A stretch of DNA of 64,000 nt, from assembly GCA_009841235.1 (NCBI GenBank), contig VXMH01000024.1, forward strand, positions 1-64,000. Reading direction: 5' to 3'. Origin of the DNA: Caldilineaceae bacterium SB0661_bin_32 (GTDB lineage Bacteria; Chloroflexota; Anaerolineae; Caldilineales; Caldilineaceae). This document shows, piece by piece, positions 27,407 through 33,171 of this stretch. The translations under genes and the position numbers were made by a program. The notes under the pieces were generated by a model, which searched no databases, was not told the origin of the DNA, and saw nothing but the letters and a program-made list of their open reading frames with translations. Every line of letters begins with the position of its first letter. Position 1 is the first letter of the stretch.

Positions 27407-28387
27407 ATGCACGCAATCGAAGTCGAACAGACGCAATCAGGCCCCCTGCTCGTCTGGCGGGAGGTGGAAGAGCCAGTTTTGCATCCGGGCGAAGCGCTCG
27501 TGTCCATCCATGCGACAACGCTCAATCGCGCCGACCTGTCTCAGGCCGAAGGCAACTATCCTCCGCCCCCCGGAGCGTCCCACATCATGGGGTTGGACAT
27601 GTCGGGAGAAATCCTCGAACTGGGCGCGGGCGTAGAGGGATGGCAGGTCGGGGACAAAGTCTGCGCACTGCTCGCCGGTGGCGGATACGCCGAACGCGTA
27701 GCCGTCGACCAGCGGCTTCTGATCCCGATTCCAAGCGGTTGGTCCTTCGAAGAAGCGGCCTGCCTCGCGGAGGTCTACCTGACCGCCTACGTCAATATCT
27801 TCATGGAGGCCGGTTTTCAGGCTGGCGAGACAATCCTCATCCATGGCGGAGCCAGCGGGGTTGGGACTGCCGCCATTCAACTGGCGCAGGGCGCAGGGGG
27901 TCGCGTCATCACGACGGCCGGACGGCCCGACAAGGTGGAGACCTGCCTCGACCAGGGCGCCGACCTGGCTATCAACTATCGGACTGAAGACTTCGCCGCC
28001 CGCACCTTGGAGTACACGGACGGTGAAGGTGTCGACGTCGTCCTCGACATGGTGGGGGCAGAGTACCTGGAGAGGAACATCGGCCTGCTGAAGGTGAAAG
28101 GCCGCCTGGTATTCATCGCTACGCTCGGAGGTTCAGAAGCAATGGTTGACATCAGGCAACTCATGGGCAGGCGCGCACGCCTGATCGGGTCAGTGCTTCG
28201 CCCCCGGTCCGTCGTAGAAAAAGCCGAAATCATCCGGCGCTTTCGACGGCAGTTCTGGGGCCAGATCGAGGAGGGCTTGATCCGTCCCGTCATCGACAAA
28301 GTACTGCCGGTTGCCGAAGCCCACGCTGCACACGAACGCATGCGCACCTATGAAAACATCGGCAAGATCGTCCTCAAAGTGCGCTGA
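27407..28387 (+). CDS. NAD(P)H quinone oxidoreductase / zinc-type alcohol dehydrogenase superfamily (MDR)
   Basis: VSIHATTLNRADLSQAEGNYPPPPGASHIMGLDMSGEILELG, LIHGGASGVGTAAIQLAQ, GVDVVLDMVGAEYLERNIGLLKVKGRLVFI. Confidence 0.94.
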   Translation: MHAIEVEQTQSGPLLVWREVEEPVLHPGEALVSIHATTLNRADLSQAEGNYPPPPGASHIMGLDMSGEILELGAGVEGWQVGDKVCALLAGGGYAERVAVDQRLLIPIPSGWSFEEAACLAEVYLTAYVNIFMEAGFQAGETILIHGGASGVGTAAIQLAQGAGGRVITTAGRPDKVETCLDQGADLAINYRTEDFAARTLEYTDGEGVDVVLDMVGAEYLERNIGLLKVKGRLVFIATLGGSEAMVDIRQLMGRRARLIGSVLRPRSVVEKAEIIRRFRRQFWGQIEEGLIRPVIDKVLPVAEAHAAHERMRTYENIGKIVLKVR

Positions 28388-28808
28388 GTTCATCCAATAG
28401 CGCCAGTACTGCGTTCTCTATCGCCGCCAGCCCCGATTCTGCGTCCGCCAAATCCAGGTCGTACATCCGCCAATAGCGGACGCATTCTTCCCATTCGGGA
28501 AAACGCGCCGCCATAAGGGGGCGGTGCTCGATCTCGTTCATAGCGATCGTGAGCGCCGCCGCCATCAGATCTGACGCCTGCAAATCCATAGGCAGTCGGA
28601 CAGGTTTGCGCGGCCCGAATCCATGTTTGCGCAGCCGGTCCAGGGCATGTCTGGACATACAGCCCAGATTCTCCAGACTTGGCTGCAGCCCGCGGCTGCT
28701 CGCCTTCCAGTCCAGTTTACGTTGCCGGGCATGCTCGTTGAAAAAGTGCTCGGCATAGCGACTGCGATAATAGTTGCCAGTGCAGACGAAAAGCACTGTG
28801 GCGGTCAT
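28374..28808 (-). CDS. Low-molecular-weight phosphotyrosine phosphatase-like protein
   Basis: N-terminal VLFVCTGNYYRSRYAEHFFNEHA (CX5R-type loop CTGNYYRS). Confidence 0.85.
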   Translation of the reverse strand: MTATVLFVCTGNYYRSRYAEHFFNEHARQRKLDWKASSRGLQPSLENLGCMSRHALDRLRKHGFGPRKPVRLPMDLQASDLMAAALTIAMNEIEHRPLMAARFPEWEECVRYWRMYDLDLADAESGLAAIENAVLALLDELSAL

Positions 28809-28826
28809 CTGTCCCGGTCCCCGTTT

Positions 28827-29453
28827 CTATCGTCGATTGCGTAACAATATCGCCTGACGACTGTCCCCGCTTTCTTCCTCTCTCGCTATCACCTGGAAGG
28901 AAAGTATCTGAAAGAAGCGTTCCAGAATCCTCCGTAACTCGTCATCCGCGTAGAGCGCATAGAACCGTTTAGGCTCGTAGAAATCCTCTTCCCGTACGCC
29001 TTCAAAGCTGCGACCTCCGTGCATGACGATGAAAATCAACCCTCCGGGCCTTACGACCCGACGGATCTCCTGCAAGACGTCCGCGAAGTCAGCCTTCGGT
29101 ACATGCAGCAGACAGTTCTGGGCGAACAGTCCGTCAAAGCGGCCGTCCGGAAAATCCAGCCGCAGGAAATCCATCTCGTATGCTGCCAGCCCCTTCTCCC
29201 GGCACAGACGAACCATCTCTGGAGAAAGATCTGTGCACACGACCTCCAGTCCCGCGTCCTGAAAGAAATGGGCTGCTTGGCCTGTACCTGCCCCGATCTC
29301 CAGGAGCGACGTCAAATCCTCGTCCTGCAAGCTCTGCAAGTACTGTACCCAAAGCGCTTTCTGCCAATCCCGGATGGGATTCCTGTCTCGTTGTTCAGCC
29401 TTGGCATCGTAAGCGCGTTTCAGTTCAGATGCGACCAAACGATAGTCTGTCAC
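28827..29453 (-). CDS. Class I SAM-dependent methyltransferase
   Basis: LLEIGAGTGQAAHFFQDAGLEVVCTDLSPEMVRLCREKGL, DGLFAQNCLLHVPKADFADVLQEIRRVVRPGGLIFIV. Confidence 0.92.
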   Translation of the reverse strand: MTDYRLVASELKRAYDAKAEQRDRNPIRDWQKALWVQYLQSLQDEDLTSLLEIGAGTGQAAHFFQDAGLEVVCTDLSPEMVRLCREKGLAAYEMDFLRLDFPDGRFDGLFAQNCLLHVPKADFADVLQEIRRVVRPGGLIFIVMHGGRSFEGVREEDFYEPKRFYALYADDELRRILERFFQILSFQVIAREEESGDSRQAILLRNRR

Positions 29454-29477: not shown

Positions 29478-31757
29478 TCAGGAAGGGTCAGCCTGGCCCA
29501 ATGCCGACTGTTCGAAAAACCCGGGACCGGGCTGGGCCAGCATGCGCGCCAATGGCCGCAACTCCATCCACCACTGCTCAAGAGGCCGTTGATGGACTTC
29601 GTCCATCAGCCTGGGAATCCGGTAAAGCGGGGTGGCGTTCACGTCGCCCTCCTGAATCCCCAGACAGACAGCTCCCACATCTGAAAAACGCCTTGCTTCC
29701 GGGCGGCTCGCCACCTCTTCAATTCTTCGCACCGCTTCCCAGGCAAGTCGCGCCGCCAGAATGCGGTCGAATGGTGACGGGTTCCCGCCCTGCTGCAGGT
29801 GTCCCAAGATAGACTGGCGCACCTCGAACAGGTCCCCCCCCTCTTCTTCGAAAAGAGCGGAAATGAAGGAGGTCGTATAGAAGGAGTTTGCAGCTTCGTT
29901 TCGTATCATCAGCCCCAAACGTTTGCCTTGCTGAAATCCCTGCCTCAGGAGCTCAATATCTCGTTCGAGGTCCTTTAAGGTTATCCCCTCTTCGTGCAGG
30001 TAGACGCGTTCGGCGCCTGTGGCAATAGCGCTCATCAGGGCCAAGTAACCGCAATATCGTCCCATTACTTCCACAATAAAGCACCTGTTCAGGGCCACGG
30101 CAGACTGCTTAATCTTGTCAACGACCTCGACGATGCTGTTCAGGGCTGTGTCAGCGCCGATACTCAACTCCGAGCCAGGCAGGTTGTTGTTTATGCTGGC
30201 AGGGATGCAGATGATGGGTATGTCGAATGCCGGAAAGTTATGCCGCTCTTCGTATAATTTGTGTGCGGCGTGATACCCAGCCCAGCCGCCAATCATGACG
30301 ATGGCATCCACTCTATGTTTTTCGAGCACCTGCGCCGCCGCATACAGTTCCGCGCCCTCAGGGGTCTTGCGGCTGCTCCCCAGTTCCGAGCCCCCGGTGG
30401 GCGCCCAGCCATTGACGGCCATCCAATTCATCTCTTCAATATCGTCGTCAATCAGGCCCCGAAAGCCCCACTTGACACCGAGAGGAATATGGCCGTTGTC
30501 TTCGAGCATGCGCACGACCGCACGTGTCGCGGCATTCATTCCCGGCGCCGGCGCACCTCCCGTCATGACAGCGACCCGTAGACGTCGTTTGTTCGGCTGC
30601 GGAGGGCGCGGGTTGGCGCGAATCAGTGTCCGCAGAATGCGGAAGGAGTCCCTGTAGGCTTTGCCCCGGTACTCCATCGCCTCGTCGAATCGGCATTCAT
30701 GGATACATCTGCCGACCTTGTGCGTCTGTTCCACGCATTCCGTCAATGAGCTGTGAACGATCTTGTTGTTCTCGAATCCGATCAGAACCGCTTCATCGCC
30801 GGACTTGGCATTGAGAACAGCTTCAGCCGCCGCCGCGCCCATCAAAGTCGCCATGACTCGGTCCGAAGCGCTGGGAGAACCACCGCGTTGCACGTGGCCG
30901 AGAACAGTCACCCGCGCCTCTTCTCCCAGGTATTTGGTGAGTACCTCTTCTACATAGGCGCTGGATATCGCGTTTCCGTGTCTATCTTGCGCTCCCTCCG
31001 CCACCACTACAATACTGTCCCGCCGGCCCATTTCGCGGCCCGTGCGCAAAATTGAGCACATCCTCTCTTCCCACTCGTCCAGATTGGGCGGGCTCTCCGG
31101 AATCAGTGCAAAATCGGCCCCGGACGCCAGTGCGCCCATCAGCGCCAGATGACCGCAGTGATGCCCCATCACCTCGACCACAAAGGCGCGCTGGTGACTG
31201 GCCGCCGTACTGGTGATGGCGTCCAGCGCCTCGGTGATGCGGTGCAGGGCGGAGTCCGTGCCAATTGACAAGTCCGTTCCGAACATGTCATTGTCGATCG
31301 AACCGACCAGACCTGCGACCGTAAGAAATCCATACTCTTCCAAGTAAGATGGCTCCAGGCGGCCTTCGGCCACCAGCTCCTCCAACAGTGAGCGCCACTC
31401 CTCCCGCAGGACCTGTGCCCCGGTCAAACTGCCGTCGCCCCCAATCACAATCAGCCGGTTTATGCCCTGGAGCAGCAGATTGTACACCGCCTCCTTGCGC
31501 CCTTCCCTCCTGAGAAAGTCCGGGCTGCGGGCAGTTCCCAGCAGGGTCCCCCCTTCTTGCAGCACGCCGCCAACCGAGTCCCAGGAAAATGGGCGAATCA
31601 GATTGCCGCCCTCGATCATCCCCTGAAACCCCTCGAAAATTCCAAATACCTCCGCCTTCCGCTCCAAAGCCGCACGCACGGCCGATCGCACAGCCGCATT
31701 CATGCCCTGCGCATCGCCTCCGCTGGTGAGGACGCCAAGCCGAGTTGTCTTTGCCAT
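29478..31757 (-). CDS. Tandem-domain 6-phosphofructokinase, eukaryotic-type architecture
   Basis: N-half: RLGVLTSGGDAQGMNAAVR, VIGGDGSLTGA, GLVGSIDNDMFGTDLSIGTDSALHRITEALDAI, VLGHVQRGGSPSASDR. C-half: RLRVAVMTGGAPAPGMNAATRAVV, IPASINNNLPGSELSIGADTALNSI, VEVMGRYCGYLALMSAIATGAE, ILGHLQQGGNPSPFDR. Confidence 0.95.
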   Translation of the reverse strand: MAKTTRLGVLTSGGDAQGMNAAVRSAVRAALERKAEVFGIFEGFQGMIEGGNLIRPFSWDSVGGVLQEGGTLLGTARSPDFLRREGRKEAVYNLLLQGINRLIVIGGDGSLTGAQVLREEWRSLLEELVAEGRLEPSYLEEYGFLTVAGLVGSIDNDMFGTDLSIGTDSALHRITEALDAITSTAASHQRAFVVEVMGHHCGHLALMGALASGADFALIPESPPNLDEWEERMCSILRTGREMGRRDSIVVVAEGAQDRHGNAISSAYVEEVLTKYLGEEARVTVLGHVQRGGSPSASDRVMATLMGAAAAEAVLNAKSGDEAVLIGFENNKIVHSSLTECVEQTHKVGRCIHECRFDEAMEYRGKAYRDSFRILRTLIRANPRPPQPNKRRLRVAVMTGGAPAPGMNAATRAVVRMLEDNGHIPLGVKWGFRGLIDDDIEEMNWMAVNGWAPTGGSELGSSRKTPEGAELYAAAQVLEKHRVDAIVMIGGWAGYHAAHKLYEERHNFPAFDIPIICIPASINNNLPGSELSIGADTALNSIVEVVDKIKQSAVALNRCFIVEVMGRYCGYLALMSAIATGAERVYLHEEGITLKDLERDIELLRQGFQQGKRLGLMIRNEAANSFYTTSFISALFEEEGGDLFEVRQSILGHLQQGGNPSPFDRILAARLAWEAVRRIEEVASRPEARRFSDVGAVCLGIQEGDVNATPLYRIPRLMDEVHQRPLEQWWMELRPLARMLAQPGPGFFEQSALGQADPS

Positions 31758-32145: not shown

Positions 32146-33171
32146 ATGGCTGCCAGACGTAGAACTTCCTTCAAATTAGGGGTGACGGGCCTGGGCGAAC
32201 GGCAGGAAATCGCACCTGGTCTGTTTATCAACACCTTCTATAGAGGCTGTACGCCGGGTTTCGTCGTCACCGACGAGGGCCTGATACTCATCGATACGCC
32301 ATTGATCCCAAAACAGGCCAAGGACTGGCGGGAACAGATAGAAGCGGAAGCGCCGGGCCTGCCTATTCTCTATGTGTTCAACACCGATCACCATCGCGGC
32401 CACGCCCTGGGAAACCAGTATTTCCTGCCTACGACGGTGATCGCACACGAACGCGCCTTTAAGGAGATGTCAGGTTACACTGAAAACTTCAAGGAACGTG
32501 TCTATAACAGCTTCAAGCGAGAGCCCGAGATCCAGGAACAGTTGACCAACATCGAGATTATTCTCCCCGACGTTACCTTTACCGACTGCGCCCGCCTCAA
32601 ATATGGAGGTCGTGAGATTCAGTTGATCTACGCCGGCGGTCACACGCCGGCCACCAGCATTGCCTGGCTGCCGGAAGAGAAGATCGCCTTTGTCGGTGAC
32701 ATCCTGTGGGTGGACCAGCATCCGTACATGGCCCAGGCCGATTCTCTCGAATGGATCGAAGCCTTGCGACGTATCCGAACCCTTGGCGCCGAGAGATTGG
32801 TCCCAGGCCACGGCCCCGTCTGCCGTCCCGACGACACCCACCGGGTGGAGAAGTACATTCTCTTCAAACGAAAGCGCGTCCGTGACTACTACCGCGCCGG
32901 CAAGACCAAGAATGAGGCCAAGAGCGGGCTTGTAGGCGAAATGCTGGAGTGGTTCCCTGTTCCGCTGGAACGCAAAGCGAAAATAGAGAGCCAGATAAAG
33001 TCCGGCATCAATCGTGTCTACCGTGAGATCCAGAGAGAAGAAGAGTTGGCTGGAGCAGAGTCTGTGAACGGAGCTCTGCAGCCGCCGTCAAACGGCGCCC
33101 CCGTCCTTCACGAGCCGCAGGCCGAAGCCAACCTGATCCCCACACCTGTGGCGGTGGAGGCCAACCAGTAG
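32146..33171 (+). CDS. MBL-fold metallo-hydrolase
   Basis: LILIDTPLIPKQAKDWREQI, VFNTDHHRGHALGNQYFLPTTVIAHE, YAGGHTPATSIAWLPEEKIAFVGDILW, LVPGHGPVC. Confidence 0.9.
   Translation: MAARRRTSFKLGVTGLGERQEIAPGLFINTFYRGCTPGFVVTDEGLILIDTPLIPKQAKDWREQIEAEAPGLPILYVFNTDHHRGHALGNQYFLPTTVIAHERAFKEMSGYTENFKERVYNSFKREPEIQEQLTNIEIILPDVTFTDCARLKYGGREIQLIYAGGHTPATSIAWLPEEKIAFVGDILWVDQHPYMAQADSLEWIEALRRIRTLGAERLVPGHGPVCRPDDTHRVEKYILFKRKRVRDYYRAGKTKNEAKSGLVGEMLEWFPVPLERKAKIESQIKSGINRVYREIQREEELAGAESVNGALQPPSNGAPVLHEPQAEANLIPTPVAVEANQ

Follow-up and report, generated by a model that had tools for sequence, protein, structure and literature searches.

A two-domain, eukaryotic-type 6-phosphofructokinase in a Caldilineaceae bacterium and the gene fusion it shares with animal and fungal PFK-1

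Results

A double-length phosphofructokinase and its genomic neighborhood

The window analyzed here is a stretch of 64,000 nucleotides from Caldilineaceae bacterium SB0661_bin_32 (contig VXMH01000024.1, positions 1 to 64,000 of the forward strand). Positions 29478-31757 encode, on the minus strand, a single ORF of 759 amino acids that begins with ATG. The features of this ORF and of its neighbors are listed below, with coordinates given in the window.

29478..31757, minus strand: two-domain 6-phosphofructokinase (PFK), 759 aa (ORF; TIGR02478; predicted model, pLDDT 90.9; best PDB fold human PFK-1)
30819..31742, minus strand: N-half PFK domain, catalytic as judged from sequence (PF00365 match, 339 bits)
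31419..31442, minus strand: GGDGSLTG, residues 106-113, nucleotide/Mg site (matches the ATP-PFK motif GGDGSxxG)
31287..31301, minus strand: SIDND, residues 153-157, with catalytic Asp155 and Asp157 (alignment to E. coli PfkA)
30579..30818, minus strand: interdomain linker, mostly helical, alignable with the rabbit PFKM linker (sequence alignment and predicted model)
29727..30578, minus strand: C-half PFK domain, predicted non-catalytic effector domain (PF00365 match, 310 bits, and motif loss)
30276..30290, minus strand: GGWAG, residues 490-494, decayed nucleotide site (motif and E. coli PfkA alignment)
30183..30197, minus strand: SINNN, residues 521-525, both catalytic Asp positions replaced by Asn (motif and E. 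coli PfkA alignment)
29790..30086, minus strand: retained C-half sugar-phosphate residues R558, M565, G566, E621, R647 and H653, with eukaryote-like Q656 (E. coli PfkA alignment)
28827..29453, minus strand: methyltransferase-domain gene, 24 bp downstream of PFK, conserved beside PFK in the genus
28374..28808, minus strand: low-molecular-weight phosphatase-like gene, conserved in most genus members examined
32146..33171, plus strand: metallo-beta-lactamase-fold gene, divergent upstream neighbor, conserved in other genera of the family

Two PF00365 domains fill the ORF, in keeping with an initial annotation that had described two complete PFK-A folds within one 759-aa frame, and every motif named there occurs exactly at the residues given. 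The same annotation had proposed a search with the NCBIfam model for eukaryotic-type 6-phosphofructokinase (TIGR02478), which the protein matches over its full length at 944.3 bits against a curated cut-off of 708.4 (E=4e-284), with the alignment spanning profile positions 2-741 of 744. The observed resemblance of the ORF to the PFK family is far beyond chance.

Inspection of the AlphaFold model (pLDDT 90.9, pTM 0.91) indicates confident prediction except for the last 16 residues and one short loop. The closest PDB fold is human PFKL (8w2g; TM 0.95, rmsd 1.7), and single-domain bacterial PFKs cover just one half of the model in the fold search. The top PDB sequence matches are likewise rabbit and human PFK-1, at ~700 bits over the full length. 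Identity to rabbit PFKM amounts to 46% overall, with 50% for the N-half and 41% for the C-half, and some other Chloroflexota members reach up to 50%, which exceeds the 43% that rabbit PFKM shares with the yeast alpha chain. The likeness to PFKM proposed in the initial annotation is thus borne out by the best PDB relatives, in both sequence and fold, and by TIGR02478.

The gene is followed on the same strand, after 24 bp, by the methyltransferase-domain gene and, after a further 18 bp, by the phosphatase-like gene, an order that most members of the genus share. In several sister genera, the place of these two genes (28374-29453) is occupied by a PFK of the PFK_mixed type. Such a second PFK adjoins the double gene in sister genera and in other Chloroflexota families; it is TIGR02483-like and belongs to the PFK-A superfamily, but it is single-domain, ~390-400 aa long and ~26% identical, and was not found in the window's genome. 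The upstream metallo-beta-lactamase-fold neighbor retains 68-75% identity across several genera of the family.

Residue-level division of labor between the two halves

Residues of both halves were mapped using E. coli PfkA numbering. The N-half retains D103, G104, G108, D127, D129, R162, E222, R243, H249 and R252, where D103, D127 and D129 correspond to D108 (within GGDGS, residues 106-110), D155 and D157 of the 759-aa protein. The C-half equivalents of these three aspartates are W492, N523 and N525, whereas the equivalents of R162, M169, G170, E222, R243 and H249 are all retained; that of R252 is Gln, as in 5/5 eukaryotic sequences. Other C-half motifs are GADTALN (534-540), MGRYCGYLALM (565-575) and GHLQQGGNPSPFDR (652-665). 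Judged by its residues, the C-half retains the sugar-phosphate pocket, whereas the nucleotide pocket and the catalytic carboxylates are gone.

This pattern extends across the 109 distinct bacterial members of the family. Their C-halves all carry the R162, E222 and R243 equivalents, all lack the D103 equivalent (the Asp of GGD), and never keep D127 and D129 together (0/109). The eukaryote-like split of labor proposed in the initial annotation therefore holds residue by residue, as does the claim that the C-half substrate/effector scaffold is kept, with its sugar-phosphate residues retained as in eukaryotes. The accompanying claim that the catalytic aspartates of the C-half are lost is correct for the window protein but varies family-wide, since 56/109 bacterial C-halves retain one of them.

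The two halves are also distinguished by the spacing of their motifs. GGDGS and SIDND lie 44 residues apart in 101/109 bacterial and 5/5 eukaryotic N-halves, and the equivalent C-half motifs lie 28 residues apart in 107/109 bacterial and 5/5 eukaryotic C-halves; in the alignment to E. coli PfkA these half-specific spacings represent shared insertions. The ancestral ADP/PEP effector site presents a mixed picture relative to E. coli, with Arg21 and Arg25 kept and others changed. The pair of glycines by which ATP types differ from ADP and PPi types does not vary among the bacterial members (109/109).

Compared with known systems, the window protein has in common with animal and fungal PFK-1 (TIGR02478 / IPR009161) its length, domain order, fold and half-specific insertions, together with a predicted catalytic N-half, a predicted non-catalytic C-half that keeps its sugar-phosphate pocket and, according to the trees described below, one fusion event. 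It differs in occurring in a bacterium, in carrying Trp rather than the Phe of sampled eukaryotes at the C-half GGD Asp position, and in carrying Asn rather than the eukaryotic Ser at the C-half catalytic Asp position. Each half corresponds to one fold of the single-domain ATP-PFK of E. coli and Bacillus (PfkA), and the N-half conserves the PfkA active site at ~40% identity. In contrast, PfkA is half as long and has no catalytic/regulatory split.

Two-domain PFKs are patchily distributed among bacteria

A two-domain PFK scores above the cut-off in all 25 of 25 genomes of the window's family and is present in 42/400 Chloroflexota. One further order of this phylum carries it in 12/20 genomes, 11 of them above the cut-off. 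Beyond Chloroflexota, with the search-centre genome included in each of the four counts, two-domain PFKs occur in 21/347 genomes from the phylum of Mycolicibacterium agri (Actinomycetota), 4/297 from that of an Aminicenantes MAG (Acidobacteriota-type), 2/244 from that of Planktothricoides (cyanobacterial) and 1/349 from that of a Contendobacter MAG (Competibacter-type). Named carriers include Arsenicicoccus, Actinomyces, Schaalia, Ornithinimicrobium and Competibacteraceae. Plasmids yielded no match, and viral contigs yielded no two-domain PFK, their 15 homologous stretches being single-domain-type PFKs or fragments.

One Chloroflexota MAG (L079, G445) encodes two different two-domain PFKs in frames of 744 and 794 aa, the former of which falls in the deepest-branching clade of the family. 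That clade is carried by one Chloroflexota order (L029, L188-L196), and two of its members, L189 and L196, have GGEGS in place of GGDGS in the N-half.

Both halves descend from one duplication-fusion

To resolve the history of the halves, N- and C-halves were separated and placed in one tree rooted on single-domain PfkA. Bacterial and eukaryotic N-halves all fall into a single clade, and all the C-halves into a second one, which is the outcome of the separate-half phylogeny that the initial annotation had called for. Forcing the window halves together lowers the log-likelihood by 355 and is rejected by the AU test (p=0.00024); forcing the eukaryotic halves together is rejected as well (log-likelihood difference 197, p=4e-34). 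Because each clade mixes bacteria with eukaryotes and both forced pairings fail, the trees show that the two halves stem from a single duplication-fusion common to animal and fungal PFK-1. A recent lineage-specific duplication, which the initial annotation had named as an outcome contrary to its reading, is rejected by the same tests: the halves do not branch together.

The best root lies within bacteria

The two-domain family was rooted with each half serving as outgroup of the other or with a single-domain outgroup, the eukaryotic sample consisting of five opisthokont sequences only (rabbit, two yeasts). The best root falls within bacteria. In the N-half and concatenated trees, the Chloroflexota clade comprising L029, L079, L188, L189, L191, L195 and L196 splits off before the divide between eukaryotes and the remaining bacteria, and the same members occupy a basal position among the C-halves. 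Most of the evidence for this root comes from a single Chloroflexota order plus one other MAG. The C-halves of the deep clade mostly retain the ancestral Arg252 equivalent (QRGG), which is Gln or another residue in nearly all other bacteria and in eukaryotes.

Monophyly of the bacterial sequences to the exclusion of eukaryotes was recovered in 0/200 bootstraps of each rooted careful tree, where values from the swapped-half trees are inflated because the data enter those trees twice. AU tests of this monophyly give a range of outcomes. It is rejected for the concatenated alignment with a single-domain outgroup (p=2.5e-5) and with a swapped-half outgroup (p=0.034), and one N-half set gives p=0.003; it is not rejected for the C-half only (p=0.25) or for the enlarged joint set (p=0.31 and 0.34). 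The initial annotation had offered two options, a eukaryote-type PFK of bacterial origin or a horizontal transfer, and the bootstraps favor the former over transfer from a eukaryote, though single-half AU tests mostly do not reject bacterial monophyly. Since the best root lies inside bacteria, the fusion is probably older than its presence in eukaryotes. That is to say, a bacterial fusion, with the ancestor of the opisthokont gene acquired from bacteria, is the most likely history, and one that the trees support without settling.

Discussion

Taken together, we consider it highly probable that the window ORF is a genuine bacterial two-domain "eukaryotic-type" PFK-A, the product of a shared and most likely bacterial fusion, with a catalytic N-half and an allosteric C-half. 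Regarding its history, we favor on balance the reading that the fusion is bacterial and probably arose in or close to Chloroflexota, that opisthokonts received the ready-made double enzyme by transfer, and that control by fructose 2,6-bisphosphate was later added to an existing bacterial sugar-phosphate effector site.

Other histories account less well for these observations. Fusion of PFK genes is mechanically easy and the window halves can still be aligned with one another, such that an independent duplication converging on the eukaryotic layout might be imagined; the AU rejections for the window pair (355) and the eukaryotic pair (197) rule this out for either lineage, and the half-specific insertion lengths common to eukaryotes leave the idea with hardly any credibility. 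Equally negligible is the idea that the gene is a eukaryotic contaminant or was recently acquired from a eukaryote. The assembly is a draft in 122 contigs, with contamination estimated at 4.5%, but occurrence in 25/25 family genomes, including single-contig ones, and conserved neighbors exclude such a source, and the gene is nested within the bacterial tree. An origin of the fusion in early eukaryotes, followed by a single ancient passage to bacteria and subsequent spread there, deserves more weight and is nevertheless unlikely. It would suit the patchy bacterial distribution (42/400 Chloroflexota, 21/347 Actinomycetota, rarer elsewhere) and the single-half AU tests that do not reject bacterial monophyly, yet the rooted trees place a Chloroflexota clade outside eukaryotes and all other bacteria, and most C-halves of this clade still carry the ancestral Arg252 equivalent.

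With respect to function, residues and fold suggest that the N-half would bind ATP and fructose 6-phosphate (F6P) and yield fructose 1,6-bisphosphate; phosphorylation of F6P with ATP is very likely its activity. Phosphate donors vary widely across the PFK-A family (PMC11609450), and the long PFK of Chloroflexus aggregans is weakly transcribed according to the part of a 2021 study that concerns it (PMC8004040), so that use of PPi or ADP by the N-half, or a protein that is mainly a regulator rather than a glycolytic enzyme, might be considered. We regard this as improbable: GGDGSLTG matches the ATP-PFK donor motif GGDGSxxG (PMC11609450), the donor-discriminating glycines are invariant, and a profile search of the window's genome for PF00365, the PFK-A type, found no second gene. 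PPi or ADP as donor is disfavored by motif only. With this as the sole PF00365 gene detected, the genome probably relies on the double enzyme as its glycolytic PFK. For fructose bisphosphatase, neither class I (PF00316) nor GlpX-type (PF03320) genes were found in the 98.7% complete genome in a search that covered these two families.

The C-half pocket, having no ATP site yet being able to hold a sugar phosphate, would tune the activity of the N-half. In eukaryotic PFK-1, the F' site is the former C-terminal F6P pocket, now an effector site (PMC12203962), and by analogy the C-half most likely acts as a built-in allosteric site. A difference from the eukaryotic enzymes concerns the ligand: no PFK-2 gene (PF01591) for making fructose 2,6-bisphosphate was found in the 13 genus members searched, in a search run without a eukaryotic positive control. 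For this reason, F6P or fructose 1,6-bisphosphate would be a more likely C-half ligand in the genus than fructose 2,6-bisphosphate.

In textbooks, the double-length PFK is a eukaryotic invention. A 2025 review still dates the PFK-1 gene duplication to eukaryotes (PMC12203962). The initial annotation had allowed that the family might already be well described in many Chloroflexota, which stands in part: a passage of the 2021 study reports a 747-aa 6PF1K_euk PFK in C. aggregans with homologues in many Chloroflexota, and gives neither phylogeny nor biochemistry of the long PFK (PMC8004040). Cagg_2702 of C. aggregans and these homologues are almost certainly of the same family as the window PFK. 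C. aggregans, as that passage describes, also has a bacterial-type PFK that is transcribed far more strongly than the long one, and because of the weak transcription of the long PFK its role there may be minor; in contrast, no other PFK-A was found in the window's genome. Given this earlier report, the occurrence of long PFKs in Chloroflexota was already known. What is new, as far as we found, is the shared fusion and the bacterial root, with a search of open-licence literature returning nothing on the shared origin, bacterial root, phylogeny or enzymology of bacterial two-domain PFKs.

Should the fused gene be older than its presence in eukaryotes, glycolysis would owe the regulatory half of its best-known allosteric enzyme to bacteria, and bacterial relatives that have no PFK-2 would let one ask what the regulatory half sensed before fructose 2,6-bisphosphate. 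The window's genome, in which no PFK-A besides the double enzyme was detected, thereby offers a simple test system for the regulatory half.
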